The notes below the pieces were generated by a model. It was not told the origin of the DNA, did no database searches, and was given only the letters and a program-made list of their open reading frames with translations. From positions 1,984,001-2,048,000 of the forward strand of contig NZ_SODI01000001.1 in assembly GCF_004365915.1 (NCBI RefSeq): DNA of 64,000 bases. The letters are read 5' to 3'. Below are positions 1,708 through 63,959 of the stretch, in pieces. Position numbers and translations under genes: made by a program. Within the stretch, counting starts at the first letter, position 1. The number at the start of each line of letters is the position of its first letter. This DNA comes from Cryobacterium psychrophilum. GTDB lineage: Bacteria; Actinomycetota; Actinomycetes; Actinomycetales; Microbacteriaceae.

Positions 1708-1941
1708 ATGACACTCACAGCGACCGACCCGAAGCCCTTCACGCGAGCGGATGAGACCCTCGGCAGCGAGGCGTTGGCCTCCGTCGCGGCACTCCGTCAC
1801 CGCGTCAATCCTGGCCGCCACGATTGCTTCACCGCCCGGTCCGCCCGCATTTCAACGGCGGCCGACTCCGGCGGACTCGACCTTCTGCCGAAGACCGCGC
1901 CGACACGGAGCACGGCCTGCGAACTGGTTGCCCAGCTGTGA
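1708..1941 (+). pseudogene. aceB: Malate synthase A remnant (N-terminal part only)
   Basis: A 77-residue ORF with a good AGGA ribosome site about 8 nt before ATG 1708. Residues about 15-63 follow the start of malate synthase A: ALRHRVNPGRHDC corresponds to the usual L-hRxFxPRRDELL, and GGLDLLPKTA to GxLDFLPETA. The family is about 530 residues, so some 85 percent is missing, including the whole TIM barrel and active site. The ORF ends TGA overlapping the GTG start of the next gene (GTGA at 1938-1941). That looks like an original stop/start overlap kept after an in-frame internal deletion. Identification rests on recalled family sequence, not on an alignment. Confidence 0.55.
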
Positions 1942-3221
1942 CGACCACGGGTTCCCTGAGCGAGGCAGACCTGAACCAGATCGAAGCACAACTCGCCGAG
2001 ACCGACGAGTTGCTGGAGAAGAACTACCCGGGAGACGACGGCAGCAGACAGCCCGTGCACACGGTCTATGTTGCAGCTGACCGGTTCACGCCGGACTTCA
2101 GCGAATGCTGGGGCGACGAAGCCATGGCGGCCGCGACGGCACAGGGCGGCCTGGCCGAGCTCTGTAGCCTGCTCGGGCAGAGCGACTCGCTGGCCGAGGC
2201 GGTGGCGGCTCGCGTGGCGGCAAAGTTGACGACCGAGCCGGTCGAAGACCTCCGGCTCGACTTCGAAGACGGCTACGGCGATCGAGGCGACGAGACCGAG
2301 GATGCCGATGTCGTTGCGGCTGCCCGCCGGGTGGCCACGGCCGTGGCGACCGGAAGCGCGCCGCCCTTTATCGGCATCCGCTTCAAATGTTTCGAGGCGG
2401 CCACCCGTGCGCGGGGCCTGCGTACGCTGGACCTCTTCGTGTCGGGACTCGCGTCGGCCGGCGAGCTGCCGGCCGGGCTGATTCTCACGCTCCCCAAGGT
2501 GACGACGGTCGCTCAGGTGCAGGCGATGGACTTCGCTGTCCATCGGCTGGAGGAGGTCCATGGTCTGGCCCCCGGGCGGCTCCGGTTTGAGGTACAGGTG
2601 GAAACACCCCAGCTGATCCTCGGTGCGGACGGAACGTCACCGGTGGCCCGGCTCCCCCATGTCGTTCCCGGCCGAATTTCGGGGCTGCACTATGGAACCT
2701 ACGATTACAGCGCCTCGCTGCAGATTTCCGCGCAATACCAGTCGATGGAGCACCCCGTCGCGGACTTTGCGAAAGAGGTCATGCAGTTGGCGGTGGCTGG
2801 CACAGGCATCCGCCTCTCCGATGGATCGACCAATATTCTGCCGGTGGGCGACGGGGCGCGCGGGGCCTGGCGCGTGCACAGCCGGCTCGTACGTCGCTCC
2901 CTCGAGCGGGGCTTCTACCAGGGCTGGGATCTGCATCCGGCTCAGCTCCCCAGCCGGTTCGCGGCAACCTATGCCTTCTACCGGCAGGGGCTGTCCGCCG
3001 CAGCGCTCCGACTGCGCAACTACGTCGAACAGTCCACGAGCGCAGTCATGGACGAGCCGGCGACGGCGCGCGCGCTGGCCGGCTTCATGCTGCGCGGGGT
3101 CCAGTGCGGGGCCATCGGCTCCGAGGAGGTGCGCGCCCTGGCCGGAATCGGTCCCGAACGCCTCATTGTCCTTGCGCACCCACGACTGGCGACCGCCCAC
3201 CCCCCGAAACGGAAGAATTGA
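1938..3221 (+). CDS. DUF6986 aldolase-like protein (HpcH/HpaI or citrate-lyase beta fold)
   Basis: 427 residues from GTG 1938, which overlaps the preceding stop and is the natural start; an earlier in-frame ATG at 1824 would add 38 unlikely residues. Motifs RLDFEDGYG (near 110), LTLPKV, FEVQVETPQLI and GTYDYSA are those of a metal-dependent aldolase/lyase of the phosphoenolpyruvate/pyruvate superfamily, with Asp/Glu metal ligands. Its exact reaction is not established. Its position between the malate synthase remnant and allE suggests handling of glyoxylate or a C4 acid in ureide breakdown. It appears complete. Confidence 0.7.
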   Translation: MTTTGSLSEADLNQIEAQLAETDELLEKNYPGDDGSRQPVHTVYVAADRFTPDFSECWGDEAMAAATAQGGLAELCSLLGQSDSLAEAVAARVAAKLTTEPVEDLRLDFEDGYGDRGDETEDADVVAAARRVATAVATGSAPPFIGIRFKCFEAATRARGLRTLDLFVSGLASAGELPAGLILTLPKVTTVAQVQAMDFAVHRLEEVHGLAPGRLRFEVQVETPQLILGADGTSPVARLPHVVPGRISGLHYGTYDYSASLQISAQYQSMEHPVADFAKEVMQLAVAGTGIRLSDGSTNILPVGDGARGAWRVHSRLVRRSLERGFYQGWDLHPAQLPSRFAATYAFYRQGLSAAALRLRNYVEQSTSAVMDEPATARALAGFMLRGVQCGAIGSEEVRALAGIGPERLIVLAHPRLATAHPPKRKN

Positions 3222-3225
3222 CGTC

Positions 3226-4044
3226 ATGGCCAACTATTACTCTCCCGACGGCGGTCTTCCGCCGCAGACCGCGCTGCTGACCGACCGGGCAGTGGTGAAG
3301 GAGGCCTACACGGTCATCCCCAAAGGGGTCCTTCGAGACATCGTCACGAGCAACCTGCCCGGCTGGGACAAGACCAGGTCCTGGATTCTGGCCAAGCCCA
3401 TCCTCGGGTTCGCCACGACCTTCTCCCAGTTGATCGTCGAGGTGTCGCCGGGCGGCGGCAGCAGTCACCCCGAGGCCGAGGCCGGCGTCGAAGGCGTCAT
3501 CTTCGTGACGCGCGGTGCCGTCATGCTCACCCTGGACGGCGAAGACCACGCCATGGAGGCCGGCGGCTACGCCTACCTCGCTGCGGGTTCTGACTGGTCA
3601 CTGAAGAATTCGGCCGCCCACACCGAGGCAGCCACGTTCCAGTGGATACGCAAGGCCTACGAGCCTCTTGCCGGCTACCGGGCGACGTCATTTGTGACCC
3701 GGGACCAGGACGTCACACCGCGGGCCATGCCCGGCACCGACGACACGTGGGCGACGACGCGGTTTGTCGACCCGGATGACCTGGCTCACGACATGCACGT
3801 CAACATCGTCACGTTTCAGCCCGGTGGCACGATCCCCTTCGCTGAGACCCACGTGATGGAGCACGGCCTGTTCGTACTCGAGGGCAAGGCCGTCTACCGC
3901 CTCAACGACGATTGGGTCGAGGTCGAAGCGGGCGACTTCATGTGGTTGCGGGCGTTCTGCCCACAGGCCTGTTACGCGGGCGGCCCCGGTGCGTTCCGCT
4001 ATCTGCTCTACAAGGACGTCAACCGACAGATTCGCCTCACCTGA
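3226..4044 (+). CDS. allE: (S)-ureidoglycine aminohydrolase, bicupin
   Basis: 272 residues from ATG 3226, 4 bp after the aldolase stop. Two cupin domains: the first around residues 60-130 (PGGGSSHPEAEAGVEGVIFV), the second around 190-260 (FQPGGTIPFAETHVMEHGLF), with the His/Glu manganese ligands of the second cupin in place. AllE releases ammonia from (S)-ureidoglycine to give (S)-ureidoglycolate, a late step of allantoin breakdown. Length and motifs fit a complete enzyme. Its substrate comes from allantoate amidohydrolase (allC), which is not in the window. Confidence 0.88.
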   Translation: MANYYSPDGGLPPQTALLTDRAVVKEAYTVIPKGVLRDIVTSNLPGWDKTRSWILAKPILGFATTFSQLIVEVSPGGGSSHPEAEAGVEGVIFVTRGAVMLTLDGEDHAMEAGGYAYLAAGSDWSLKNSAAHTEAATFQWIRKAYEPLAGYRATSFVTRDQDVTPRAMPGTDDTWATTRFVDPDDLAHDMHVNIVTFQPGGTIPFAETHVMEHGLFVLEGKAVYRLNDDWVEVEAGDFMWLRAFCPQACYAGGPGAFRYLLYKDVNRQIRLT

Positions 4045-4138
4045 GACCCGAAACCGCCACAATGATCAGGTCCATATTGTCGGGGTAGTTCACCGAAGCG
4101 AGTGTGCGGATGCCGCTGGTCGCGAACGTGGCGCCGAT
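4037..4138 (-). pseudogene. Fragment of a nucleobase:cation symporter-2 (xanthine/uracil permease)
   Basis: Between the converging allE and uox genes the minus strand encodes ATFATSGIRTLASVNYP followed by DNMDLIIVAVSG, then a stop that overlaps the end of allE. This closely resembles the conserved segment of actinobacterial NCS2 purine permeases (usual form: MFGTVAASGIRTL..KVNYDDNMNLIIVAVSL). There is no start codon, and a full transporter would be about 450 residues, so only about 34 residues remain. The fragment lies directly downstream of urate oxidase, where purine permeases are often found. Recognised by eye; no search was run. Confidence 0.55.
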
Positions 4139-4223
4139 TGACAGCCGTGCATCTTGGACGTGGTTCCGGTGCGTTCGATCACCGGGCGACCCTCGTTGTG
4201 CTCACGTGACACGGTGGTGGTGA

Positions 4224-4244
4224 TCGTCGGCCGGTGGCCGACGA
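4224..4244 (-). terminator. Hairpin after urate oxidase
   Basis: Perfect 8-bp stem CGTCGGCC / GGCCGACG around loop GGT (4225-4243), extended by a T-A pair, starting 15 nt after the uox stop on the minus strand. There is no T-run, as often in high-GC Actinobacteria. Confidence 0.5.
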
Positions 4245-4258
4245 CCGGGAGCTCACTC

Positions 4259-5161
4259 TCAGCAGAAGCCGGCGATGCCTTCCCAGGCGTTGCCGGCATC
4301 CGACGCATTGTCACGGAGCACGGTGGCTTCAATGAGACCGTATGGGCGGTCGGCGGCGAAGAAGACCTCGTTCGGGTTATCGAGTCCGAACGGGGACAGG
4401 TCGACCAGAAAGTGATGTTTGTTCGGCATGGAGAACTTGATCTCGTCAATTTCGGGGTGGGCTTCCAGGACCTTCTCGCCCATCTCGTACAGGGTCTGCT
4501 GCAGGGCCAGCGAATAGTTCTCGCTGAACGCTTCGAGCAGCAGCCTCTGTACGTCGTCGTACATCGCGTTGAAGTCCAGATCCGTCGTGTTGTAGCGCCA
4601 GCGGGCGGCGACATCCGTGGCCAGGATTCTGTCGGTCACCTCAGTAAGAGTCGTATATTCGTCGCGGGGAAAGCCCACGAAGCCGGATTCGGTCGACTTG
4701 AGCACGGTGAGGTTCTTCAACCCGCCGATGACGTGCGCCGTGTCACCATCGCGCACGACAACGGCGGTTCGCACCGCCTGGCCATTACGCACGAAGGAGT
4801 GCGGGTGACCGGTTCCCTCAGCCTGGATCCGGTCCCAGCCAAACGAGTCGGCCGCCCATCGCCCGCCACTGACCCAGTCGAAGCTGGAGGTGAAGTGATC
4901 GGCGAGCCGGAGCAGGAACGCCTCCGGCGACCCGACGCCCTGGCGGGCCAGGGCGTAGACGGTGTTCTTTTGGGTGTCGGTCGCGACCACGTGGGCGGTG
5001 TCGCCGTCCAGGTGCGCGGCCTCGAAGTCACCGCGTAGTTGCGAGGTGACGTTGAGGTCTTCGATCTCGTGCCGGGCGGTGTCGCGGGTGATCTTCACCA
5101 GGCGAACCTCTGCCTTGCCGTACTGATTGGATCCAAGGATGATCCGGCTGTTGCGTGACAT
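4259..5161 (-). CDS. uox: Urate oxidase (uricase)
   Basis: 300 residues from ATG 5161, placed 1 nt after the uraH stop with AAGGGA upstream; the longer frame to 5230 runs into uraH and is rejected. Uricase motifs: YGKAEVRLVKITRD at the N-terminus, the TDTQKN segment that contributes the active-site Thr, and MPNKHHFLVDLSPFGL. The tunnel-fold enzyme oxidises urate with O2 to 5-hydroxyisourate and H2O2 without a cofactor. It appears complete and is the last gene of the minus-strand uraD-uraH-uox operon. Confidence 0.93.
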   Translation of the reverse strand: MSRNSRIILGSNQYGKAEVRLVKITRDTARHEIEDLNVTSQLRGDFEAAHLDGDTAHVVATDTQKNTVYALARQGVGSPEAFLLRLADHFTSSFDWVSGGRWAADSFGWDRIQAEGTGHPHSFVRNGQAVRTAVVVRDGDTAHVIGGLKNLTVLKSTESGFVGFPRDEYTTLTEVTDRILATDVAARWRYNTTDLDFNAMYDDVQRLLLEAFSENYSLALQQTLYEMGEKVLEAHPEIDEIKFSMPNKHHFLVDLSPFGLDNPNEVFFAADRPYGLIEATVLRDNASDAGNAWEGIAGFC

Positions 5162-5162
5162 G

Positions 5163-5501
5163 TCAGCTTCCCTTGTATGTCGAAAAAGTGAAGGGGGCCA
5201 GCAGCAGAGGTACGTGGTAGTGCGCCTCACCCGCTGTGATGCTGAACGTCACGACGACCTCGGGGAAGAAGGTCGTGAGCTGGCGACCGGCGAAGTACTC
5301 ACCGGTGGCGAACTCCAGTCGGTAGCGCCCGGGCGGAAGAATGTCCGGTCCGAGTCCGTTCACGCGGCCGTCGGCATCGGAAACGCCCGAGGCAATCTGT
5401 GACCAGCCGTCGGCGGCGGCGAGGAGCTCGACCGAGACGCCCGCGGCCGGTCGGCCGGACACTGTGTCGAGGATGTGGGTGGTGACAAATGAACGGCTCA
5501 T
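5163..5501 (-). CDS. uraH: 5-hydroxyisourate hydrolase (transthyretin-like)
   Basis: 112 residues, the usual length. The N-terminal THILDT motif and the C-terminal signature (YKGS here, usually YRGS) supply the conserved His, Arg/Lys and Ser of HIU hydrolases. The Lys for Arg change is conservative but sits in the signature tetrapeptide. It hydrolyses 5-hydroxyisourate to OHCU. The start overlaps the uraD frame by 4 bp (ATGA), so the two are translationally coupled, and uox follows 1 bp later. Confidence 0.92.
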   Translation of the reverse strand: MSRSFVTTHILDTVSGRPAAGVSVELLAAADGWSQIASGVSDADGRVNGLGPDILPPGRYRLEFATGEYFAGRQLTTFFPEVVVTFSITAGEAHYHVPLLLAPFTFSTYKGS

Positions 5502-5788
5502 GCCTGCAGTACTCCGTCTAGTCTCAGCCGTGCGATTTCCCGTCCTTGTTCTCGCACGATGGGTTCTTCCTCGTCGGGCGCCTGCCCCAATCGTTGTTGC
5601 AGGGCGGCGTTGCCCTCCCCATCAGCAAAGGGGGATGCGGCGCGTCCCGTGCACGCGAGCACTGCGTGCTTGCTCGGATAGGGCCGCGACGGGATGTTCT
5701 CGTTAATCCAGCGTTGAATATCGAGGCGGGGCCGGAGGGCCGTATCAATCTCCGAGCGCGCGGTTGCGTTGAACCGTTCAAGCAACAT
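5498..5788 (-). pseudogene. uraD: OHCU decarboxylase with an internal deletion that removes the active site
   Basis: A 96-residue frame from ATG 5788 with AAGGA 7 nt upstream. The first ~60 residues (LLERFNATARSEI ... RWINENIPSRPYPS) match the N-terminus of OHCU decarboxylase and the last ~30 (RLGQAPDEEEPIV, EIARLRLDGVL) match its C-terminus. The family is about 165-175 residues. The missing middle holds the HPRIGE segment with the catalytic His and Glu, so the product should be inactive. The join is in frame (around AALQQRLG), and coupling to uraH is kept. A longer frame to 5959 has no similarity and is not the gene. Confidence 0.75.
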
Positions 5789-6095
5789 TGCCTGGTCCTT
5801 ACGATTAATGCTGGCATCCACGGTGTAGGGGCTATACGGCGGCTTGCTTCCGTATCGTGGAACTGTTATTTCAGCACATTTAGAAGTAAAACGCATCGGT
5901 GGAATGGTGTCAACGCCGGACGCCCGCCCTGCCGCTTTTTCATTATTCAGAGTAACCATTCCAGAATCCGTGGTGATTGCTTTCCGCTGCTGTTACTGTC
6001 GGTTTCAGTCCCCGCCGGATCAATGGAAATCACGCGACTCACGTCAATCCAATCGTTGGCGATCCGGCTCCCCACGACAGAGGAAGTCCCCGCTG
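5789..6095. promoter_or_regulatory. Divergent promoter region between uraD-uraH-uox and the guanine deaminase gene
   Basis: 307 bp with no gene. Two inverted copies of an eight-base motif occur: TGGAATGG at 5900-5907 (continuing GTGTC) and CCATTCCA at 5956-5963 (reverse strand TGGAATGGTTAC). The same GAATGGT core lies upstream of iclR. These are candidate operators for the shared regulator. The rest shows nothing recognisable. Confidence 0.45.
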
Positions 6096-6584: not shown

Positions 6585-6606
6585 CTGCGCGCCAACTGGC
6601 GCATTA

Positions 6607-6622
6607 TGGAATATGAATTCCA
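6607..6622. promoter_or_regulatory. Palindromic operator candidate upstream of xdhA
   Basis: TGGAATATGAATTCCA: perfect 6-bp arms TGGAAT / ATTCCA separated by ATGA, about 90 bp before the xdhA start. The arm matches the TGGAAT core seen in the other purine-cluster intergenic regions. Likely a binding site for the cluster regulator. Confidence 0.5.
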
Positions 6623-6711: not shown

Positions 6712-8210
<1,499 letters not shown>

Positions 8211-12901: not shown

Positions 12902-13732
12902 ATGACCTCACACAACGACATCATTCGGAACCAGGCCAGCGCCCGCCCGACCGACCGTGCCCGCTCGAACGCAGCGGTTCGGATGCTCAACAAGGTGCCG
13001 GAGGTCACGATCTATTTCTGGATCGTGAAAGTGCTGGCCACCACCGTCGGTGAAACCGGCGCGGACCTCTTGTCGACAACCCTCAACTGGGGTCTCTCGG
13101 TCACGACGTGGTTCATGAGCACTCTGCTCATCGCCTCCCTCGTTCTCCAGTTTCGGGCGCGACGTTACACGCCCTCGCTCTACTGGACCGCCGTCGTGTT
13201 GATCAGCGTCGTCGGCACCCTGTTCACCGACAACCTGGTGGACAATTTCGGTGTGCCGCTCTGGGTAACGACGGCCCTGTTCGCTGTGGCTCTGGCCGGG
13301 ACATTCGCCGTGTGGTTTGCCCGTGAACGCACCCTGTCCATCCACACGATCCTGACGCGCAGGCGCGAGTCGTTCTACTGGCTCACGATTCTGTTCACCT
13401 TCGCCCTCGGGACCGCGGCCGGAGACCTCATTTCTGAGGGGCTCCAGCTGGGCTACGCCCTGGCCGTTGGGGTGTTTGCCGGCCTGATCGCCCTCGTCGC
13501 TGTCGCTCATTACGTGTTCACGTTCAACGTGGTGCTGTCCTTCTGGCTGGCCTACATTCTGACCCGACCGCTCGGCGCATCCGTTGGAAACCTCCTGTCG
13601 CAGGCGCACGGTGACGGCGGCCTGGGCCTCGGCACGATTGGGACCAGCCTGCTGTTCCTGGCCGTGATCGTAGCCGTCGTGATCTCCTTCACGAGGTCCG
13701 AGCGCCGGTCGCGGCTCCTGATGGCCAGGTAG
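12902..13732 (+). CDS. COG4705-type multi-pass membrane protein
   Basis: 276 residues with about eight hydrophobic segments. The repeated motif KVPEVTIYFWIVKVLATTVGE followed by TGADLL, with FYWLTILFTFALGTAAGDL in the second half, marks the COG4705 family, an internally duplicated membrane protein. Function unknown; such genes are often near two-component systems that respond to metals or acid, as here. It ends convergent with a damaged paralogue on the other strand. Confidence 0.75.
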   Translation: MTSHNDIIRNQASARPTDRARSNAAVRMLNKVPEVTIYFWIVKVLATTVGETGADLLSTTLNWGLSVTTWFMSTLLIASLVLQFRARRYTPSLYWTAVVLISVVGTLFTDNLVDNFGVPLWVTTALFAVALAGTFAVWFARERTLSIHTILTRRRESFYWLTILFTFALGTAAGDLISEGLQLGYALAVGVFAGLIALVAVAHYVFTFNVVLSFWLAYILTRPLGASVGNLLSQAHGDGGLGLGTIGTSLLFLAVIVAVVISFTRSERRSRLLMAR

Positions 13733-13734
13733 CC

Positions 13735-14102
13735 GACGAAGACGACAATCGCCCCGGTCAGGGCGAGGGTCCCCCCACGTCGCAGCTTCCAGAAAACCAG
13801 CGCAGGAATCGCGATGATCGTACCGAACACGCTCACGAGCACGACCGCGAGCCAGTAGAGCGCGGGCAGGTAGCGCGTGGCCCGAAATTGCAGCGCGAGC
13901 ACGGCGGCGAACACTCTCTACGACAAGGGCGTGCTCAGCGACGCAGCGGGTCGACGGTGGTGACCAGAAAGTCAGAGGCGGTCTCTCCCATTCCCGTGGT
14001 GAGAACCTTGGTGATCCAGAACGCCACGGTGATCTCGGGGACCTTGCTGAGGGCATCTGTTTGCGAAATGCGCTGTGTGGTTGTGTGGACGGTGTCGGTC
14101 AA
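13735..14102 (-). pseudogene. Broken second COG4705 membrane protein gene
   Basis: Reading from a TTG at 14102 behind a strong GGAGGAG site, the first part gives LSKVPEITVAFWITKVL and GMGETASDFLVTTVD, then a premature TGA at 13935-13937. A different frame resumes at about 13914 with LALQFRATRYLPALYW and VVLVSVFGTI, then jumps to a last-helix-like segment (ALTGAIVVFVGYLAIRSRD). So it carries a frameshift/deletion plus a second internal loss. It runs into the 3' end of the intact paralogue. Family match is by the shared motifs of the neighbour. Confidence 0.7.
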
Positions 14103-14174
14103 TGCGGACTCCTCCGCGAGGCTCTGGTGTGCGGATCTCACAACGCTAGAACCGGCCACCTGCCTCCACCCTGA

Positions 14175-15083
14175 CTACCTCGATCGCGTGGCCACTGGGC
14201 GTGTACTCGGCAGGGTGAGCACAAACGTCGTGCGCGGTTCGCCCGGTCGCACGTCAACGTCTCCCCCGGCGGCGCGAGCGAGGCGCCGGGCCAGCGCCAG
14301 ACCGAGGCCGACGCCGGGGCCGGGGCCATTGGCCGCGCGAATGCCGGGCGAGAAGAGGTCACTCGGATCGATACCGAGACCCGGGCCGTCGTCGACGACA
14401 CGGATCTGGACCAGGTCCCCGCACTCCACGGCGGACACGCTGATGGCGGAGCGACTGAACCGCAGCGCGTTTTCGATCAGCGGCGCGAGCGCCCGCACCG
14501 CGACGGCCTGCGGTACCGCGAGCTCAAGCCCGGTCGACGGTGCGACGGTGACCGTTCGTTCGTCAGAACGGATGCCCGTCGTCGCCGCGGTCAGCACCTG
14601 GTCGGCGGACTCGATGATGCGCTCGAACCGTGCCCGCTGTTCGCGGGGCAGGTGGGGGTCGAGGGTGGCCAGCTCTGACTCGGCGCGCACGACCGTGAGG
14701 GGTGTGCGCAGTTCGTGAGCGAGCTCCGCACTCAGGCGCTGCTCGGCCAGGATGGCGCGGGACACCCGCGCGAGGAGTGCATCGAAAACCTGTCCGAGCT
14801 GGGTCAGCTCGTCACGCGGTTCGCCGAGGTCAAACCGGTGCGAGAGGTCATGTTCGCTCCATTCCGATGCTTTCTGGGCCATGACCGCGACCGGGCGCAG
14901 GGCGCGCCGCACGACCCAGGCCGTGAGTGCGCTGACCCCGGCCACAACCAGGACGCCGAGGCCGAGACCGAGACCCGCGAGCAGGGTGCGGTCCTGGGTG
15001 GCCCGGTAGGGCGTCAGTGAGACGCCGGCGATCACGACGCCGGCCTGCGCGGGTTCACCCTCGAGCACGGGCGGGCGGCTCAT
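14175..15083 (-). CDS. Sensor histidine kinase lacking its N-terminal sensor half
   Basis: 302 residues from ATG 15083, overlapping the regulator stop by ATGA. It opens with what normally is the end of an extracellular loop (VVIAGVSLTPYRATQ), followed by one membrane helix (about 33-55), HAMP, the dimerisation box LSAELAHELRTPL with its phospho-accepting His, and N, G1 and G2 ATPase boxes (ENALRFS, DDGPGLGI, GVGLGLALARRLA). Typical relatives are 430-480 residues with two helices around a periplasmic domain. The first helix and most of the sensor seem deleted while the ATGA junction is kept. The kinase may be constitutive or unable to sense. Confidence 0.85.
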   Translation of the reverse strand: MSRPPVLEGEPAQAGVVIAGVSLTPYRATQDRTLLAGLGLGLGVLVVAGVSALTAWVVRRALRPVAVMAQKASEWSEHDLSHRFDLGEPRDELTQLGQVFDALLARVSRAILAEQRLSAELAHELRTPLTVVRAESELATLDPHLPREQRARFERIIESADQVLTAATTGIRSDERTVTVAPSTGLELAVPQAVAVRALAPLIENALRFSRSAISVSAVECGDLVQIRVVDDGPGLGIDPSDLFSPGIRAANGPGPGVGLGLALARRLARAAGGDVDVRPGEPRTTFVLTLPSTRPVATRSR

Positions 15084-15742
15084 CGAAGTACGTATCCGAC
15101 GCCGCGGACCGTTTCGATGCCGACCGGGGAACCCAACTCGGTGAGTTTGTGGCGCAGGCGCCGCATGTAGGAATCGATCGTGTTCTCCTGAACCATGGCG
15201 CCGTACGGCCAGGCGGATGCCACGACGTCGCGACGACGCACAACCTCGCCCGGACGTGCGGTGAGGGCGGCGAGCATGCGAAATTCGGTGGGGGTGACCG
15301 ACACCTCGGCCGTGCCGCAGCGTACGGAGAATCGTTGCGGGTCGAGGCGGAGAGCCGAGTCCTCTTCGGGTGACGGGCGTCGTCGACGGGACAGTGCCTC
15401 CACCCGCACCAGTATTTCGGTCATCTTGAACGGCTTCGTCACGTAATCGTCTCCCCCGGCATGGAAGCCGGTAACGACATCGTTGAGAGCGCCCAGAGCC
15501 GTGAGGAAGAGCACGGGAGCGAATTGCCCGGCCGCGCGTAGCGCCTGGCACACGTCGCGCCCATCCGAATCCGGCAGGCCGATGTCCAGGATGATCACGT
15601 CAAGGGTCGCCTCATGGGCGAACAGGCCGAAGGCCTCCTGACCGTTGTGCGCCATCACCACGGTGTGGTTGCCCTGCGTCAACGCCTCGCGGAGCAGGCG
15701 GCGGATCTGGGGATCATCCTCGCAAACTCCGACCAGTGCCAT
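15080..15742 (-). CDS. OmpR/PhoB-family response regulator
   Basis: 220 residues. The receiver domain (1-115) has acidic CEDD near residue 8, phospho-acceptor Asp in LDIGLPDSDG, Thr in FLTALG and Lys in VTKPFKM. The C-terminal winged helix (about 130-220) has FRMLAALTARPGEVV and the typical end YMRRLRHKL ... GVGYVLR. It is the first gene of a two-gene operon with the kinase. Target genes are unknown; the adjacent COG4705 genes are candidates. Confidence 0.92.
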   Translation of the reverse strand: MALVGVCEDDPQIRRLLREALTQGNHTVVMAHNGQEAFGLFAHEATLDVIILDIGLPDSDGRDVCQALRAAGQFAPVLFLTALGALNDVVTGFHAGGDDYVTKPFKMTEILVRVEALSRRRRPSPEEDSALRLDPQRFSVRCGTAEVSVTPTEFRMLAALTARPGEVVRRRDVVASAWPYGAMVQENTIDSYMRRLRHKLTELGSPVGIETVRGVGYVLR

Positions 15743-15790: not shown

Positions 15791-17164
15791 TTAGCCGCCG
15801 GCGACCATGTCGGCGAAGCGCGAGTAGTGGCCGTGGAAGGCCACGGTGACGGTGCGCGTTGGTCCGTTACGGTGCTTGGCGACGATGAGGTCGGCCTCGC
15901 CGGCGCGCGGGTTGTCTTTCTCGTAGGCGCTCTCGCGGTGCAGCAGGATGACCATGTCGGCGTCCTGCTCGAGCGAACCGGATTCTCGCAGGTCGGAAAT
16001 GGCCGGCATCTTGTCGGCGCGCTGCTCGGGGCCACGGTTCAGTTGGGACAGGGCGATCACGGGAACCTGAAGCTCCTTGGCCATGAGCTTGAGCGCACGC
16101 GAGAACTCACTGACTTCCTGCTGACGCGACTCGACCTTTTTACCGCTCGTCATGAGCTGCAGGTAGTCGATGACCACGAGTTTGAGCCCGATGCGCTGCT
16201 TGAGGCGACGGCACTTGGCTCGAATCTCGACCAGGGTCATGTTGGGGCTGTCATCGATGTAGAGCGGCGCATCGTTGATGCGACCGCGCGTGGAGGCAAT
16301 GGTGGTCCAGTCCCTGGCCTCAACCGTTCCCTTACGCATGCTCTGCAGGGGAACGGATGCCTCGGCGGCGAGCAGACGCATCGCAATTTCGCTGCGTCCC
16401 ATTTCGAGCGAGAAGAAGATGCTGGGCATGTCGTGCTTGATGGACGCAGCACGGGCGAAGTCGAGGGCGAGGGTGGACTTTCCGAGCGCGGGTCGGGCCG
16501 CCACAATGATCAGCTGGCCCGGATGGAAGCCGTTGGTCAGCTCGTCCATGTCGGCGAAGCCGGTGGGCACGCCGCTCATCTGGCCGTCCTTGAGCTTGGC
16601 CGCCTCGATCTCTTCAATCGCGGCCGTGACGGCGTCGGTGAGCGGAACGTAGTCTTCGGTCTGTGTGCCGCCGGTGACGGCATAGATCTCGGCCTGGGCC
16701 GTGTTGACGAGGTCGAGCACCTCGCCCTCTCCGGAATAGCCCATCTGGGCGATGCGCGTGCCTGCTTCGACCAAGCGGCGGAGCAGGGCGCGCTCGGCCA
16801 CGATGGTGGAGTAGAAGCCGGCGTTGGCGGCGGTGGGAACGAGGCTCGTGAGCGTGTGCAGGTAGTCGGCACCACCGGCCCTGGTGAGTTCGCCGAGCTT
16901 GGTGAGCTCGTCGGTGACCGTGATGACGTCGGTGGGTTCACCCTGCGCGTAGAGCGAGAGGATGGCGTCGAAGATGATCTCGTGTTTGGGAACGTAGAAG
17001 TCCCCGCCCCGCACGGTCTCGACGACGTCGGCCACGGCGTCTTTGCTCAGCATCATTCCACCGAGGGCACTCTGCTCCGCAAGGAGGTCATGCGGCAGCA
17101 TTCGTTCGGTCTGGCGTGGCTCCGAAGTCTTCGGCGTGGCCAGGCCCAGCTGTGCAATTGACAC
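15791..17164 (-). CDS. dnaB: Replicative DNA helicase
   Basis: 457 residues from GTG 17164 with GAGAGAGGT upstream; a longer frame to 17242 is open but lacks a site. The N-terminal DnaB helical domain (MLPHDLLAEQSALGGM) is followed by the RecA-like ATPase with Walker A ARPALGKSTLA (near 210), Walker B VVIDYLQLM and the LRESG arginine-finger region. No intein is seen. It unwinds DNA at the fork and would be loaded with help from DciA (40619). Upstream lies an unusual DnaA-box cluster. Confidence 0.95.
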   Translation of the reverse strand: MSIAQLGLATPKTSEPRQTERMLPHDLLAEQSALGGMMLSKDAVADVVETVRGGDFYVPKHEIIFDAILSLYAQGEPTDVITVTDELTKLGELTRAGGADYLHTLTSLVPTAANAGFYSTIVAERALLRRLVEAGTRIAQMGYSGEGEVLDLVNTAQAEIYAVTGGTQTEDYVPLTDAVTAAIEEIEAAKLKDGQMSGVPTGFADMDELTNGFHPGQLIIVAARPALGKSTLALDFARAASIKHDMPSIFFSLEMGRSEIAMRLLAAEASVPLQSMRKGTVEARDWTTIASTRGRINDAPLYIDDSPNMTLVEIRAKCRRLKQRIGLKLVVIDYLQLMTSGKKVESRQQEVSEFSRALKLMAKELQVPVIALSQLNRGPEQRADKMPAISDLRESGSLEQDADMVILLHRESAYEKDNPRAGEADLIVAKHRNGPTRTVTVAFHGHYSRFADMVAGG

Positions 17165-29197: not shown

Positions 29198-29697
29198 GAT
29201 ACCGGGTCCCCCGCCGCAGTCCCTGGGTCTCGACAGGCTCGACCACCGCAACGACTGTTCCCGCGCGGCAGTCAGCGATACCCCTGGGTCTCGACAAGCT
29301 CGACCAACGCAACAGTCGCACCCCACGCAACACCGCACTGATCGAGCCTGTCGAGATCACCCCCGCACCCAAACACCTCCACCCCTGCGAGATCGCCGAG
29401 CTTATTCAACGCTACGGGCGTCCCCGCGCGACCGTCAGCTAAACCCCTCGGCCTCAACCGGCGACCCCAAACAACGGCCACCCCCGCGCTACACGGCCAG
29501 GCACGCACCCGACGCGCCCCTGCGTATCGCCAGGGTCTCGCCAGGGTCTCGACAGGCTCGACCACCGCAACGGCCGCGTCCCGCGCAGCGCAGCCGTCCA
29601 CTCCACCTCGCTGACCGCGTCAGCACCTGCGTCGACAACGATCCCGATCAACGCCATCCACGCCTCCTCGCCCATCACCTATCGGGTTTCACACGAA

Positions 29698-29713
29698 TGT
29701 TTCACGTGAAACG
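29698..29713. promoter_or_regulatory. parS site 2
   Basis: TGTTTCACGTGAAACG, 15 of 16 consensus bases; the flanks (CGAA before, GGAT after) are the same as at site 1, so the copies share more than the core. Confidence 0.92.
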
Positions 29714-29745
29714 GATGCCCTGGTTCCCCGCCGCGGTCCCGAGGC

Positions 29746-29805
29746 CTCGACGGGCTCGACGGGGTCGACGGGCTCGACGGGCTCGACGGGGTAGACGGGG
29801 TCGAC
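29746..29805. repeat. Short tandem repeat of CTCGACGGG
   Basis: Six to seven imperfect tandem copies of the nonamer CTCGACGGG / GTCGACGGG, ending GTCGACCAACGCAAC. It looks like an expanded form of the nearby TCTCGACAGGCTCGA element and is a candidate for slippage. Confidence 0.75.
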
Positions 29806-29888
29806 CAACGCAACGTGACGGACAACACCCGCACGCCACCGCCATCCACAATTCTCGACGCACCCTGCGCCGATCGAGCCTGTCGAGA

Positions 29889-30194
29889 TCACTTCTCCCG
29901 CCTGCACTCCGTCGACGCCCGACTCAACCACGGGAGATCCTCTGGTCGGCCGTTAATCAGTGCTTCCCGCTTCGTAAATCCCGAGTTCTGCACCTGCTTC
30001 TCACGCCAATAGGATTCCGATATCAACTCGTACTCTTCGTAGTAGACAAGCGTCACCGGGCGCCGTCTCTCCGTCTACGACGCTCCCCCACCGTTGTTGT
30101 GCTGCCAGACTCGTTGCCATAACCGCCATGTGCTTCCCACATAGTACGAACCGTCGGAGCACTTGAGAATGTACATGAAGAGCATGCCGACCAT
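29889..30194 (-). pseudogene. GIY-YIG endonuclease-like gene with an in-frame stop
   Basis: From ATG 30194 (or 30185) the frame reads MLFMYILKCSDGSYYVGST, the GIY-YIG core, then WQHNNGGGAS, a TAG at 30075-30077, then TERRRPVTLVYYEEYE, REKQVQ and KREALINGRPEDLPWLS to TGA 29889-29891. All parts of a small UPF0213/GIY-YIG protein (about 100 residues) are in one frame, interrupted only by the stop, which could come from one substitution of a Tyr codon. The stop codon of the gene directly abuts a copy of the 15-mer repeat. Either dead, or read through. Confidence 0.75.
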
Positions 30195-30221
30195 GGTGCC
30201 CGCGAAGCGGCTGAATGGGAG

Positions 30222-30230
30222 TTATCCACA
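30222..30230. promoter_or_regulatory. DnaA box (perfect)
   Basis: TTATCCACA, exact consensus, 38 bp from parS site 3 and far from oriC. Confidence 0.7.
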
Positions 30231-30267
30231 GACTTGTACCCAGCCTTGAACGCGCAGGCTCTGGGCG

Positions 30268-30283
30268 TGTTTCACGTGAAACA
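30268..30283. promoter_or_regulatory. parS site 3 (perfect)
   Basis: TGTTTCACGTGAAACA, an exact 16-of-16 match to the ParB-binding consensus. Confidence 0.95.
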
Positions 30284-30422
30284 TTCACTGGAGAAAGGGT
30301 GGCAGCTCCAGCAGAAGACCTCCCTTCCCAATGAAACATTGAAGTGTCCCGGGGCCTTGCGAAATCTGGCTGTCAGACTTCCGGCGGAACGCTCCCCAAA
30401 TATCCGCCGTCAAGTACGAAAG

Positions 30423-30431
30423 TTATCCACA
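30423..30431. promoter_or_regulatory. DnaA box (perfect)
   Basis: TTATCCACA, exact consensus, in the same non-coding region, about 200 bp from the box at 30222. Confidence 0.7.
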
Positions 30432-30510
30432 GAGCGCAGACTCATGACCACCGAGCTGCAAAGTCCCAATCACAGCCACTTTGGCCGCACCTATCCAGCG
30501 CTCTCGCCAC

Positions 30511-30674
30511 GATCTCGACAGGCTCGATCAGCGCACGGGAGAGCTTCCGAGGTCGACCGGCGGGGGTCTGCGCGGAGCAACCGCGCGTTAGTCGAGGCAG
30601 TTTCAGACCACGAAATGTGGATCTCGACAGGCTCGATCAGCGCACGGGAGAGCTTCCGAGGGCGACCGGCGGGG
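30511..30674. repeat. 55-bp direct repeat, two near-identical copies
   Basis: 30511-30565 and 30620-30674 differ at one base (T to G at the 43rd base). Each begins with the 15-mer TCTCGACAGGCTCGA and continues through GCGCACGGGAGAGCTTCCGA. A third, degenerate copy starts near 30730. The sequence GACCACGAAATG precedes the second and third copies, giving a unit of about 110 bp. Confidence 0.85.
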
Positions 30675-30882
30675 TCTCCCAGCAGACGTAAACGCGAGTT
30701 AATGCGGTCCCACGAGACCACGAAATGGGAATCTCGACAGGCTCATCAGCGCACAGGAGACGCTGGCGGGGGTGGTCGGGAGAGATATGTGGGGCGCGAG
30801 GAGGCGCTGGTCGAGCCTGTCGAGACCTGGGAACGTGTCTGCTGGGGTACGAAAATGCCCGCCAGCGAGTCGCAGGCGGGCA

Positions 30883-30898
30883 TGTTTCACGTGAAACG
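30883..30898. promoter_or_regulatory. parS site 4
   Basis: TGTTTCACGTGAAACG, 15 of 16 consensus bases, 8 bp past the parB stop codon. Confidence 0.92.
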
Positions 30899-30905
30899 TG
30901 GGGGT

Positions 30906-39256: not shown

Positions 39257-39433
39257 ATGCACGTCGGAGAAGGGCGCTCGACGCTCGAGGAAGCGCTGGT
39301 CACTGCTGATCCGGCCGTGAGCGCGGCCATTTTCGCTCGGCCTCTGTCTCGGGAAAGCGACTCCCCCGTGATGAAGGCCGTGGCCGCTCTGCGGAGCCCG
39401 TTCGGCGGCCACGCCGTCAAGAAGGCCGACTGA
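39257..39433 (+). pseudogene. gnd: 6-phosphogluconate dehydrogenase remnant
   Basis: A 58-residue ORF with GGAG before ATG 39257. After MH it reads VGEGRSTLEEAL, IFARPLSRESDSPVMKAVAAL and FGGHAVKKAD, matching the C-terminal end of the short actinobacterial Gnd (usual forms GEGRWTVxEA, FARF.SR..DSPA, RNQFGGHAVK). The NADP domain (MHIGLIGLGKMG...) and most of the helical domain are gone; the family is about 300 residues. gnd normally occupies this slot between dnaN and recF. The fusion of MHVG to the GEGR segment keeps the frame, so an in-frame deletion of about 240 codons is the simplest reading. Confidence 0.7.
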
Positions 39434-58388: not shown

Positions 58389-58393
58389 GGAAC

Positions 58394-59685: not shown

Positions 59686-59888
59686 AGGTCTCCCGATCCG
59701 GTCCGATTGGCTATGAGCATGTTACTTGTCTCGGGCGTAACCCGCCTGAAGGGCGCAGGGGGCACGAAGGATGAGTCTACCCGCGCGACTTGCAGGGCGG
59801 TTAATTCGGGGGACTTTCGAGGGGGCGCGCCGGGTCGAGCGCGTCGAATGGCGTCGGACCCCATTTCAGTGTTAGCATCTGTAAGTTC

Positions 59889-59972
<84 letters not shown>

Positions 59973-59985
59973 CAATGCGAACAGA

Positions 59986-60013
59986 AAGGCCCCCGAGAAA
60001 TCGGGGGCCTTTT
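59986..60013 (+). terminator. Intrinsic terminator after tRNA-Leu
   Basis: 11-bp stem AAGGCCCCCGA / TCGGGGGCCTT with a GAAA tetraloop and TTTTG following. Confidence 0.92.
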
Positions 60014-60146
60014 GTCGTTCATGATTCTGGCAGGGCGAAATGCCCGCTCCGGTCGGCCGTGCGGATGCGGCGGCTCTTCTTGATCTCATCCCTGACGCCC
60101 CGGTCGGTGAGGCCTCAGGGGCGAGCAATATGTCTTGCAATGGATA

Positions 60147-60162
60147 ATACCCCGGGGGGTAT
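60147..60162 (+). promoter_or_regulatory. CsoR-family-type operator
   Basis: ATACCCC GG GGGGTAT, perfect 7-bp arms with a 2-bp centre, 38 bp before the start of the Cys-rich miniprotein. G-tract palindromes of this shape are bound by the CsoR/RcnR/CstR repressors of copper, nickel or sulfide genes. No csoR is in the window. Confidence 0.65.
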
Positions 60163-60199
60163 GCTACTGTCAGTTTTACCAGAAAGAAGGAGGACCACC

Positions 60200-60325
60200 G
60201 TGTGCTACCAGATCACATGTTCAACCTGTAAAAAAGCGACGTGGGACGGTTGCGGCCAGCACATCGAAGACGCGCTCTACGGAGTCGCGGAAGCCGATCG
60301 CTGTACCTGCAATGCCGGCGCCTGA
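60200..60325 (+). CDS. 41-residue cysteine-rich protein
   Basis: GTG 60200 with AAGGAGGA at ideal spacing. The protein starts MCYQITCSTCKKATWDGCG and ends RCTCNAGA; six Cys and one His in 41 residues (Cys 2, 7, 10, 18, 34, 36; His 21). Similar short proteins (TCxxCxKxTWxGCGxH) exist in Actinobacteria but have no assigned function to my knowledge. The Cys spacing suggests a metal-binding knuckle or thiol relay. The CsoR-like palindrome upstream points to control by copper or sulfane sulfur. Confidence 0.75.
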   Translation: MCYQITCSTCKKATWDGCGQHIEDALYGVAEADRCTCNAGA

Positions 60326-60368
60326 CGGACCTGATCTTCTGGCCGTAGCGTGAGCAGGATTTAAGGGT

Positions 60369-60731
60369 GTGAGCCTCGTGGGTGATTCACGTCTCACCAG
60401 GACCGGCGTTCTGCAGGCCCGAGCCCACGCTGCGCAGGAATGGTCGATGTCGCTGGGCGACACGACCTCCTGTGCCTTGGCGAAAGACGGACACTCGCAC
60501 CCGTCGGCCAAGTTTCACGAGGGAAAAGTGGCGGCCCTCGGTGAGTTGGCGCGAAGAATTACCGACGACACCGATGACGGGTCCAGTGCTGCGGCGGCAA
60601 CCGCCGTGAAGATGCGCTGGGCTGACCAGGTGATGCCCGGCGCCCGTCAGGACCGTGACTGGGAGGCCTACCGCGCTGGAGGAATCCAGGCCATGACGGA
60701 GATCGCCGTTACGCACAGAGCGGTCCCATGA
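60369..60731 (+). CDS. Hypothetical protein of unknown family
   Basis: 120 residues from GTG 60369. Soluble, no membrane segment. Middle region KDGHSHPSAKFHEGKVAALGEL then an Ala-rich part. I do not recognise it. Its stop overlaps the next ATG (ATGA at 60728), a hint that it is or was translated. The strong site of the gene 40 bp upstream suggests cotranscription. Confidence 0.45.
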   Translation: MSLVGDSRLTRTGVLQARAHAAQEWSMSLGDTTSCALAKDGHSHPSAKFHEGKVAALGELARRITDDTDDGSSAAAATAVKMRWADQVMPGARQDRDWEAYRAGGIQAMTEIAVTHRAVP

Positions 60732-60821
60732 CGGCCCCGGAACCGCCGGTGATCGGCGAGATGGACGATGGAATCGACTTTCCCATGGTCAACGAACGAG
60801 CGGTTCGGGCATCCGCCGGCG
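60728..60821 (+). pseudogene. Possible N-terminal remnant of a DUF4395-like membrane protein
   Basis: About 31 residues from ATG 60728, ending at IDFPMVNERAVRASAG, resemble the start of DUF4395 proteins, whose N-terminus has a (V/L)NERAVRxxAG motif before the first membrane helix. The helices are missing; the frame runs on in the same phase through the arsD promoter region into arsD without a stop. Similarity is from memory and weakly supported. Confidence 0.3.
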
Positions 60822-60841
60822 CCAGGTACACACCGAGCCCC

Positions 60842-60862
60842 ATCGACAACCGTCGATATAGT
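60842..60862 (+). promoter_or_regulatory. ArsR-type operator and -10 box before arsD
   Basis: ATCGAC AACC GTCGAT (60842-60857), perfect 6-bp arms, followed by TATAGT (60857-60862) as a -10 box. This is the place and shape expected for an ArsR/SmtB-type repressor site, about 60 bp before arsD. Confidence 0.55.
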
Positions 60863-60922
60863 GGGAGAACCGCCAGCACAACATTCTGTCTCGGACAACG
60901 ACGACTAAGGAACGGTTCGCTC

Positions 60923-61360
60923 ATGACCAACATCCAGATCTTCGAACCCGGTCTCTGCTGCGGCACGGGCATTTGCGGTGTGGACGTCGACCAGCAACTC
61001 ATCACGTTCTCGGCCGACATGGACTGGGTGCGCACCGAGGGCGGCGACGTCACGCGTTTCAACCTCGCCCAGGAGCCGCTCGCATTCGCCGAAAACGATA
61101 CCGCCCGCACCTTCCTGAAGACGGCCGGCGAGGAGAGCCTGCCCGTCGTGCTCGTCGACGGCGCTACCGTCCTGACCGGCCGCTATCCGACGCGCGCCGA
61201 ACTGGGCCGGTGGGCCGCACTTGACTCGGCTCCTCTCGCGGAGGTAATGCCGCCCACCCCGGCCGCGGTCCAGCCCGAGGGATCCCGCCAGCTGCTGCCG
61301 ATGGCCGCGGCGACGCAGCAGGGCGACTCGTCCTGCTGCGGCGGAACCTGCTGCGGCTAG
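60923..61360 (+). CDS. arsD: Arsenite metallochaperone ArsD
   Basis: 145 residues from ATG 60923. Cys12, Cys13 and Cys18 (GLCCGTGIC), the arsenite-binding trio of characterised ArsD, are exactly placed. A second pair of vicinal Cys lies at the C-terminus (SSCCGGTCCG). A thioredoxin-like fold; it passes As(III) to ArsA, encoded 1 bp downstream. The frame is open to 60728 without a stop. Confidence 0.92.
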   Translation: MTNIQIFEPGLCCGTGICGVDVDQQLITFSADMDWVRTEGGDVTRFNLAQEPLAFAENDTARTFLKTAGEESLPVVLVDGATVLTGRYPTRAELGRWAALDSAPLAEVMPPTPAAVQPEGSRQLLPMAAATQQGDSSCCGGTCCG

Positions 61361-61361
61361 C

Positions 61362-63152
61362 ATGAGGATGACGGCTCTGAGATTCCTCGACGCGGCTCCG
61401 CGCTTTGTCTTCTTCACCGGCAAGGGCGGGGTCGGCAAGACTTCCATCGCGTGCGCGGCGGCCGTACGGCTGGCCGATGCTGGGGCATCCGTTCTACTCG
61501 TCAGTACCGACCCTGCCTCCAACGTGGGCCAGGTCTTCGGCGTGACCATCGGCAACACTCTCACTCCCATCGACTCGGTGCCGGGCCTGTCTGCCCTGGA
61601 AATCGATCCGGAGCAGGCCGCCGAACAGTACCGGGAACGTATCGTCGGGCCGGTACGCGCCGTGCTCCCGGCTGCAGCGGTCGCCTCGATCGAGGAACAG
61701 CTCTCTGGTGCCTGCACGACCGAGATCGCCTCGTTCAACGAGTTCACCGATCTCCTCACCGATGCCGCGTGGACGGCAGCCTACGACCACATCATCTTCG
61801 ACACCGCGCCCACCGGCCACACCATCCGGTTGCTCCAACTGCCCGGTTCCTGGACCGACTTCCTCACCGAAGGCAAGGGCGATCCCTCCTGCCTCGGTCC
61901 GCTGTCCGGACTCGAAAAGCAGCGGGCGATCTACACGGAAGCTGTCGGCACCCTGGCCGATCCCGCCCGCACCCGGCTGGTCCTGGTCGCCCGAGCGCAG
62001 CAGTCCACACTGCAGGAAGCCGAGCGCACCCACACCGAACTGGCCGCAATCGGCATGGAACGCCAGTACCTGGTGGTGAATGGAATCCTCCCCGATGACG
62101 TCGTGGGTGCCGACCCCCTGACCGTGTCCATCCACGACAGTGAAAGCCGTGCCGTGGCGGAGCGATCCGAGGCGTTGAAGGCGCTGCCGACGGACTACAT
62201 CGAACTCAAGAACGACAACATGGTGGGCCTGCCCGCGCTGAGAAGCCTGCTTCAGGCCGGAAACTCTCCGACTGAGGCAGTGCATTCCTCACTGGGCACG
62301 ACAATCGCGCCGCTATCGGCGCTGGTGGACGAGATCGCGGCCGGAGGCCACGGACTCATCATGCTCATGGGAAAGGGCGGCGTCGGCAAGACCACCATGG
62401 CGGCGGCCATCGCCGTGGCCTTGGCCGAACGCGGACTGCCTGTGCACCTGACGACGACGGATCCCGCCGCACACCTGGCGGACACCCTGCGCGGCGCCGT
62501 GGAGAACCTTGCGGTCTCCCGCATCGATCCCGCTGTTGAAATCCAGCGGTATGCCGCCGACGTCATGCGCAGCAAAGGCGCCCACCTCGACGAACAGGGG
62601 CGGGCGATGCTGAAGGAGGACCTCCGTTCACCCTGTACCGAGGAAATCGCAGTCTTCCAGGCGTTCTCACGCGTCATCCGGGAAGCGAAGACCAAGTTCG
62701 TGGTGATGGACACGGCCCCAACCGGCCATACCCTGCTCCTCCTGGACGCGACCGGCTCATACGACCGTGAAGTCAAGCGTCAGGTCGGGAGCACGATGCA
62801 TGTCACCACGCCGATGATGAAGCTGCAGGACCCTGAGCAAACGAAGGTGCTGCTCGTGACCCTGGCCGAAACCACACCGGTGCTCGAGGCCGCCGAGCTG
62901 CAGGAGGACCTCCGCCGTGCCGGCATCAAGCCGTGGGCCTGGATCGTCAACAACTCGATCGCGGCCGCGGCGCCCACGTCCGCCTTCCTCCGGGCACGGT
63001 CAGCCAATGAGGTGGCCGAAATCACGCAGGTCACGGAGAACTACGCGGACCGGCTGGCACTTGTTCCCTTGCTTCCCGTCGAACCCGTCGGCATTCCCGC
63101 CCTGCGCGCATTGGGGCACTCCCGCTTCGTCCGGATAGCAGCAGACGCATAG
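61362..63152 (+). CDS. arsA: Arsenite-stimulated ATPase ArsA
   Basis: 596 residues made of two homologous halves. Walker motifs TGKGGVGKTS (near 20) and MGKGGVGKTTMA (near 334), and two DTAPTGHT signal motifs. The three metal-site Cys (SGACTTEIA, GDPSCLGPL, RSPCTEEIA) correspond to Cys113, 172 and 422 of the plasmid R773 enzyme. It powers an As(III) efflux permease (ArsB/Acr3), which is not in the window. Confidence 0.95.
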   Translation: MRMTALRFLDAAPRFVFFTGKGGVGKTSIACAAAVRLADAGASVLLVSTDPASNVGQVFGVTIGNTLTPIDSVPGLSALEIDPEQAAEQYRERIVGPVRAVLPAAAVASIEEQLSGACTTEIASFNEFTDLLTDAAWTAAYDHIIFDTAPTGHTIRLLQLPGSWTDFLTEGKGDPSCLGPLSGLEKQRAIYTEAVGTLADPARTRLVLVARAQQSTLQEAERTHTELAAIGMERQYLVVNGILPDDVVGADPLTVSIHDSESRAVAERSEALKALPTDYIELKNDNMVGLPALRSLLQAGNSPTEAVHSSLGTTIAPLSALVDEIAAGGHGLIMLMGKGGVGKTTMAAAIAVALAERGLPVHLTTTDPAAHLADTLRGAVENLAVSRIDPAVEIQRYAADVMRSKGAHLDEQGRAMLKEDLRSPCTEEIAVFQAFSRVIREAKTKFVVMDTAPTGHTLLLLDATGSYDREVKRQVGSTMHVTTPMMKLQDPEQTKVLLVTLAETTPVLEAAELQEDLRRAGIKPWAWIVNNSIAAAAPTSAFLRARSANEVAEITQVTENYADRLALVPLLPVEPVGIPALRALGHSRFVRIAADA

Positions 63153-63372
63153 GCTGCACCCGCGGCCGCGGGTCTCGGTAGTGAAACTTTCGATCTCCAT
63201 TTTCGTGAGTCGCGCTACCATGCGAGCACGTTCCGGGAAACGCACAACAACATGATCCTCGGCGCCGTGCGGCTCAGCAAGGCAAGGGGCTTGGCCGCAC
63301 AACCGGGCCGGCAGAAAAGGGGAGTGGCGTAGGAGTGAGGCGAGCGATGCGGCGGGCCCTCACGAGTACCGG
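63153..63372. other. Non-coding gap after arsA
   Basis: 220 bp. Short open frames on both strands show no recognisable similarity. The stretch just before 63373 reads in frame as HEYR- and earlier residues that fit the next gene but has no start codon after the TGA at 63253. Confidence 0.4.
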
Positions 63373-63959
63373 GTGCGCGAGATTATCACGGTGTTCGTGC
63401 TGTCGGTGACGGCGGTGCTGACGGCGTGGTGCGGGTGTGAATCCTCCAAATGGGGCGGCGAGATGTCGATCGATTTCAGTCAGGCATCCTCCGCCCGTAT
63501 CCAGGCCACCGACTACGACGGGCAAGCCCGTGATGCCCGGCAAATCGACGTCGCCAGCTACCTCCAATGGATCGAAGCGACCGCTGACGAGCTCCCCCAG
63601 CGCGCCCAATATTACGAGGACCGGTTCACTCCGACATTCGCCGTTGCCTTCGACGCGTGGGAAGCCGGCGATAGGGAGGAAGCCTTCCCATTCGTCCTCG
63701 ACGAATACGTGCCAGAAGGAACCGCGGAAGCGGCGGAGATGAATGCGACCCCGGATGCCCGTTTCGCGGACGCGCTCAAGAGTAACCAGCGCGGCGACAA
63801 CTATTCCCTGCTCACGGTCCTGTTCGCGCTCGTGCTGTTCCTGACCGCGATGTCGCAAAGGAACAACAGCGAGTGGGCGCCCGGGCCCTCCTCGGTCTCG
63901 GCGCCGCCGTCAGTATCAGGGGAGTGGTCCTCATGCTCACGTTCCCGATCAAGATCTGA
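63373..63959 (+). pseudogene. Two-helix membrane protein with a frameshift near its end
   Basis: From GTG 63373 the frame gives REIITVFVLSVTAVLTAW (helix 1), a ~120-residue soluble part (QASSARIQATDYDGQ, QIDVASYLQWIEA, RFADALKSNQRGDNYS), and helix 2 (LLTVLFALVLFLTAM). Near 63881-63890 the frame must shift by -1, after which ALLGLGAAVSI and VVLMLTFPIKI lead to TGA 63957-63959, a third helix ending as such proteins usually do. Without the shift the frame runs off the window. A one-base loss or sequencing error. Function unknown. Confidence 0.65.

Follow-up and report, generated by a model that had tools for sequence, protein, structure and literature searches.

The in-frame internal deletions observed in a 64,000-nt stretch of the chromosome of the cold-adapted Cryobacterium psychrophilum (hereafter the window, G000:C1:1984001-2048000, from a genome of 3.68 Mb in two contigs) are probably products of ordinary decay of accessory or redundant genes, in which deletions between short repeats come out mostly in frame through the codon phase of the repeats themselves. 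Five internal deletions in four genes (gnd, a DUF4395 gene, uraD and, twice, a histidine kinase gene) are well supported by comparison with homologues, and the reading frame is kept in all of them. Each of the four genes has an intact homologue in relatives and retains both of its own flanks.

Chromosomal setting of the damaged genes

The window contains the origin region, with genes taken to be dnaA, dnaN, recF, gyrB and gyrA, named in part after an earlier sequence-only reading. Among the loci compared, its RecF is closest to those of Cryobacterium sp. MLB-32 (79%) and of other Cryobacterium. Synteny with five genomes of the same genus (G016, G020, G023, G005 and G002) extends from 15792-15810 to a point between 59760 and 60020, as delimited by matches longer than 80 bp for G016 and longer than 300 bp for the other four. 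G016 is the closest relative, with long blocks aligning at 78-83%, and in the 44 kb core only three large interruptions separate it from the window: gnd, a repeat-rich gap at 29.2-30.9 kb and an insertion in the recF of G016. The left 15.8 kb, a non-syntenic arm, carries a purine-degradation cluster, and long matches to its xdh genes were found in at least 4 of 56 other genomes of the genus (G060, G056, G015 and G021, among the matches listed). The right end carries arsD and arsA. A tRNA-Leu at 59889-59973 sits where synteny with the five relatives stops, which would fit an integration site.

The sequence-only reading described nine damaged genes scattered among housekeeping genes. The damage is real, the scatter is not: five of the nine lie in the left arm, two to the right of the tRNA-Leu and only two in the conserved core, so that seven of nine fall in the two non-syntenic arms (Table 1). 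The idea that the nine represent one phenomenon was rejected; the causes are mixed and include, beyond internal deletions, a stop codon (GIY-YIG), frame changes (the second COG4705 gene and, apparently, the last gene) and a relic (the NCS2 permease). All five genes that the same reading had listed as broken (these four and the DUF4395 gene) do show damage, and the DUF4395 gene, listed as merely broken, in fact carries an in-frame deletion as well.

Table 1. Damaged genes of the window and the intact genes associated with them (positions are those of the window).
Feature	Position	Strand	Remarks
aceB (malate synthase) remnant	1708..1941	+	About 68 N-terminal codons, a short stretch, then a stop overlapping the next gene (GTGA)
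DUF6986 aldolase-like gene, intact	1938..3221	+	PF22484, 591 bits; immediately follows the aceB remnant
NCS2 purine permease relic, about 34 codons	4050..4150	-	tblastx match (62%, 34 residues) to a 504-aa frame in the purine cluster of G015
uraD (OHCU decarboxylase) remnant, 96 aa	5498..5788	-	69 codons lost net, in frame; stop and HIUase start overlap (ATGA)
COG4705/DUF347 gene, intact	12902..13732	+	PF03988, 193 bits, 4 stretches
Second COG4705/DUF347 gene	13720..14159	-	Frame changed, with stops; homologous stretches in two frames; PF03988 match over 23 positions
Histidine kinase, 302 aa	14175..15083	-	Two in-frame losses; HAMP, HisKA and HATPase kept
Partner response regulator, intact	15080..15742	-	Stop overlaps the kinase start (ATGA); 81% amino acid identity to G042
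GIY-YIG gene	29890..30190	-	One in-frame stop codon; G016 orthologue open at the same place
gnd remnant (short 6-phosphogluconate dehydrogenase type)	39257..39433	+	Between dnaN and recF; in-frame losses of 705 bp and 6 bp
DUF4395 remnant	60728..60845	+	First 31 codons, exact in-frame deletion of 120 bp, rest lost; frame open into arsD
Last gene	63352..63959	+	Frame open to about 63860; likely C-terminus in another frame (six-frame reading)

The homologue of the NCS2 relic in the G015 purine cluster matches Xan_ur_permease at 300 bits. The last gene has no Pfam match and no close homologue among the loci compared, and a frameshift near 63860 would account for its present form. As for the recF insertion, the G016 gene (L114, G016:C1:195001-215000) has 508 codons and that of the window 395; the insertion is in frame and holds two copies, 198 bp apart, of a unit containing GTCTCGACAAGCTCGACC, a motif that occurs eight times (with up to 3 mismatches) in the 29.2-30.9 kb zone of the window. 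The recF frame of Cryobacterium sp. MLB-32 (L032) has a different expansion at the same place. Positions 29200-30900 form a repeat-rich stretch with near-palindromic GTCTCGACAGGCTCGACC copies, adjoined by genes taken to be parB and parA. ATGTTTCACGTGAAAC, a presumably parS-like sequence, is present in 5 copies within 464 kb of the same genome.

Internal deletions and their remnants

Between the same flanks, G016 carries 705 bp more of gnd than the window, a multiple of three; the difference from G020 is likewise 705 bp, and the window gene has lost a further 6 bp in frame. As judged by spacing, sequence of gnd length lies between dnaN and recF in 15 of 24 genomes of the genus and is absent from the other 9 (G003, G005, G009, G010, G013, G014, G015, G017 and G019), in which dnaN and recF are 0-9 bp apart. 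The window remnant, which ends 5 bp upstream of recF, has the appearance of an intermediate stage of a gene loss found repeatedly in the genus. Its amino-acid-changing divergence (pN) is 0.150, 0.166 and 0.186 against G016, G020 and G023; the intact G016-G020 and G016-G023 pairs give 0.067 and 0.061. At the join stands CGGA. G016 has this sequence at its 3′ copy and G020 at its 5′ copy, in both positions as the final base of one codon followed by a GGA codon. No proxy genome has both copies exact (the 5′ copy of G016 is TGGA and the 3′ copy of G020 is CGGT), so that the 4 bp repeat is inferred across two proxy genomes and not from the ancestral sequence. As a control, 20000 random deletions per gene were drawn, none differing from the real length by more than 90 bp. 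For the gnd proxy, which ran slightly past its stop, 2.0% of them had an exact run of 4 at the join and 5.9% one of 3.

In the DUF4395 remnant, bases 1-93 and 87-118 match bases 1-93 and 207-238 of the homologues in both G046 and G008. The G008 homologue is recognised as DUF4395 (PF14340, 79 bits), while the remnant itself has no Pfam match. The 120 bp were lost between CGCCGGC and CGTCGGC, which stand in the same codon phase (CG[C/T]CGGC); 1.1-1.2% of random deletions had a run of 7 with no more than one mismatch. A single open frame of 210 codons (60728-61360) spans the remnant and arsD, and within it arsD has its own ATG at 60923. Unless translation of arsD starts at that ATG, the decay product may thus extend ArsD at its N-terminus.

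The sequence-only reading had proposed to look for short direct repeats at the junctions. They are supported at the two of the five deletions whose junctions could be placed, from blastn overlaps (gnd and DUF4395), and relatives were too diverged for the junctions of uraD, the kinase and aceB to be placed. A mobile-element insertion as the cause was rejected at the two placed junctions, which hold no extra bases.

The uraD gene has 97 codons including the stop, compared with 166 in each of G056, G015 and G021, and the net loss of 207 bp is in frame. The start assigned earlier (5959) was corrected to an ATG at position 5788, since nothing in the three homologues corresponds to the 57 codons that begin the listed open reading frame. 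Automatic placement of breakpoints gave steps of 136, 208 and 205 bp, which are not multiples of three and are offset by small gaps; only the net frame is certain, and the loss may have been one deletion or two. The Pfam match covers only the last 31 of 155 positions. The N-terminal part has a pN of 0.464, 0.458 and 0.410 against G056, G015 and G021, compared with 0.201 and 0.228 between intact pairs, and the intact neighbours have 0.19-0.20 (uricase) and 0.27 (HIUase). The C-terminal part has a pN of 0.31 compared with 0.19 for intact copies, and its dN/dS is not raised where computable (0.27 vs 0.28).

The kinase is 302 aa long, compared with 455 in G042, and its net frame is kept. The first loss leaves 4 residues before the common PVLEG/PIILD stretch, compared with 128 in G042 (124 fewer), and the second is a gap of 26 codons relative to G042, by which the spacing of HisKA and HATPase departs from that of the orthologue. 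Against G005, automatic breakpoint steps are 397 and 88 bp, not multiples of three, and small gaps compensate. Five orthologues were examined; four have an open frame, all of them longer, and the fifth (L276, G045:C1:2326001-2334000) appears split over two frames in a genome listed as 83% complete, which may be a sequencing error. The start of the kinase, which had been cited as preserved, is indeed present at 15083, but it coincides with the ATGA overlap that the stop of the intact regulator requires anyway.

For aceB, too, an in-frame internal deletion is probable. Residues 1-75 of the intact AceB of G056 align with the remnant at 43% identity, and the similarity of its last 8 or so codons to the end of AceB is too slight to establish that the join is in frame. 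No consistent junction was obtained from automatic breakpoint placement, and the contrast in pN (0.36-0.43 compared with 0.12-0.30 for intact copies) is weak, one intact pair being itself diverged (pN 0.30). Of the four clean in-frame deletions claimed earlier, those in gnd, uraD and the kinase hold as regards the frame, and that in aceB only as probable. Relatives with the same short forms, which the sequence-only reading would have taken as a refutation, were seen neither among the 24 genomes compared by gnd spacing nor among the five kinase orthologues.

For five of the damaged genes, members of the same family over the cut-off (intact for gnd, uraD and aceB) occur elsewhere in the genome: one 6PGD match (a 499-aa frame, C1:2648385) for gnd, one UraD match (a 178-aa frame, C1:282083), two MS_C matches (542-aa and 569-aa frames, C1:1063494 and 2258277) for aceB, two PF00860 matches for the NCS2 permease and three PF14340 matches for the DUF4395 gene. 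These family members may serve the functions of the broken copies.

Codon phase of short repeats inside genes

Within genes, maximal exact direct repeats separated by 60-2000 bp were counted, and a pair was taken as in phase when its distance was a multiple of three. In 36 hand-picked CDS of the window, the in-phase share rises with repeat length, from 0.478 at 4 bp to 0.541 (5 bp), 0.590 (6), 0.642 (7), 0.706 (8), 0.727 (9) and 0.773 (10). Codon-shuffled versions of the window genes retain 0.478 (4 bp), 0.572 (6), 0.669 (8) and 0.708 (10), and base-shuffled versions give 0.335, 0.333, 0.326 and 0.376 at the same lengths, with a range of 0.326-0.338 at 4-9 bp. Hence codon usage alone causes most of the bias. 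Similar shares were obtained for 172 CDS-like ORFs (244 kb) from the adjoining 400 kb (0.479, 0.582, 0.688 and 0.806 at 4, 6, 8 and 10 bp), for E. coli K-12 (32 CDS; 0.445, 0.562, 0.691 and 0.851) and for phage T4 (25 CDS, 36% GC; 0.457, 0.535, 0.622 and 0.725). The last two indicate that the bias is no peculiarity of high-GC genomes.

Because repeats inside genes mostly share codon phase, repeat-mediated deletions should usually be in frame. This expectation runs contrary to the earlier premise that random decay would usually shift the frame; the in-phase share of the repeats runs from 48% at 4 bp to 81% at 10 bp. With all five well-supported deletions in frame, P is 0.004 at a random expectation of one third and 0.026, 0.072 and 0.17 when the in-phase share is set to 0.48, 0.59 and 0.70. 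The sample is small, with five events in four genes, the kinase gene contributing two.

Decay of spare genes would then probably proceed as follows. Deletions between short direct repeats inside genes would remove accessory or redundant genes, the ends being joined by replication slippage or by single-strand or microhomology joining. With most intragenic repeats in the same codon register through codon usage, the usual product would be an in-frame internal deletion, whose remnant would retain its start, its stop and the overlap with the next gene and later decay by substitution. Low polarity on the downstream gene would presumably help such deletions to persist. The earlier suggestion that short-homology deletions are frequent and that in-frame ones are kept comes near to this for gnd and DUF4395; its special filter for in-frame products is not needed, since most intragenic repeats share codon phase from the outset.

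Whether codon usage phases repeats in any bacterium, such that between about half and four fifths of repeat-mediated intragenic deletions are in frame, with the fraction rising with repeat length, is a proposition to which we give even chances. If it is true, the natural outcome of gene decay would be mini-proteins and fused domains that are still in frame, not frameshifted fragments. Decay would then continually supply short new ORFs, fusions like that of the DUF4395 remnant running in frame into arsD, and regulators without a sensor, of which the kinase would be an example. The codon phase of repeats also removes an apparent anomaly: clean in-frame deletions look engineered or artefactual only under the one-third expectation, which does not fit repeat-mediated deletions within coding sequence. 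Furthermore, it supplies a quantitative, testable expectation for deletion spectra and for the recognition of mini-proteins that arise through gene decay. A narrow literature search, limited to titles and the openings of abstracts, returned no codon-phase explanation of in-frame deletions, which does not in itself establish novelty.

Competing explanations and related systems

The pattern could instead reflect selection and not mutation bias, frame-shifting deletions being purged as polar on coupled downstream genes (DUF6986, HIUase and recF). The aceB, uraD and gnd remnants do lie directly upstream of intact genes, two with a stop/start overlap and gnd 5 bp before recF. In addition, in a comparison with G016 over 400 kb on one side of the window (44 clean indels of at least 45 bp, 19 of them inside a long frame, gnd included), 14 of the 19 are multiples of three, although this also reflects selection on working genes, in which most of these indels lie, so that they do not test mutation bias. 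The complete absence of gnd from 9 of the 24 relatives, with dnaN and recF nearly abutting, indicates that an open frame through gnd is not needed for recF, and codon-phase bias alone predicts mostly in-frame products. Selection against polarity was therefore rejected as the sole cause; it may add to that bias without being required, and as an explanation in its own right it is regarded as rather doubtful. The other option raised earlier, that segments were dropped in assembly, is very improbable. It would agree with a kinase that shows no decay after its supposed deletions, but the excess of amino-acid-changing divergence in the gnd and uraD leftovers (about 1.6 to 3 times that of intact copies) means that these have changed like relaxed DNA, which makes drop-out unlikely for both. 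The loss of gnd in 9 of 24 relatives speaks against it as well, as does the core alignment with G016, where the only large interruption besides gnd and the 29.2-30.9 kb gap is the insertion in the G016 recF itself.

For the kinase the alternatives are specific. Its pN is 0.219 to G042 and 0.249 to G005, resembling the 0.238-0.239 between intact orthologues, so that the surviving codons are under normal constraint with no sign of decay; the gene may be functional, recently deleted or, least likely, misassembled. A working variant that has lost its first membrane helix and its sensor part, and that serves the intact regulator in a constitutive or retuned manner, would account for this constraint, for the three retained domains and for a frame preserved across two losses. 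Against such a variant, the removal of 26 codons between HisKA and HATPase should disturb the fold, and a recent loss would give the same picture; we consider it unlikely.

Decay of spare genes through codon-phased repeats, which we favour for the window, has parallels. Deletions between short direct repeats are familiar in bacteria from lacI-type deletion hot spots. The Cryobacterium cases resemble pseudogenes of this origin in their internal loss, the repeats at the two placed joins, the lack of extra bases and the intact flanks; they differ in being fixed, partly decayed remnants, and in that frame preservation is here traced to the codon phase of the repeats. Similarly, they resemble paralogue loss in variable chromosomal arms, since gnd, uraD, aceB, the NCS2 permease and DUF4395 have family members elsewhere. 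In this respect little is special about them, apart from the loss of gnd beside the replication origin in an otherwise conserved gene order.
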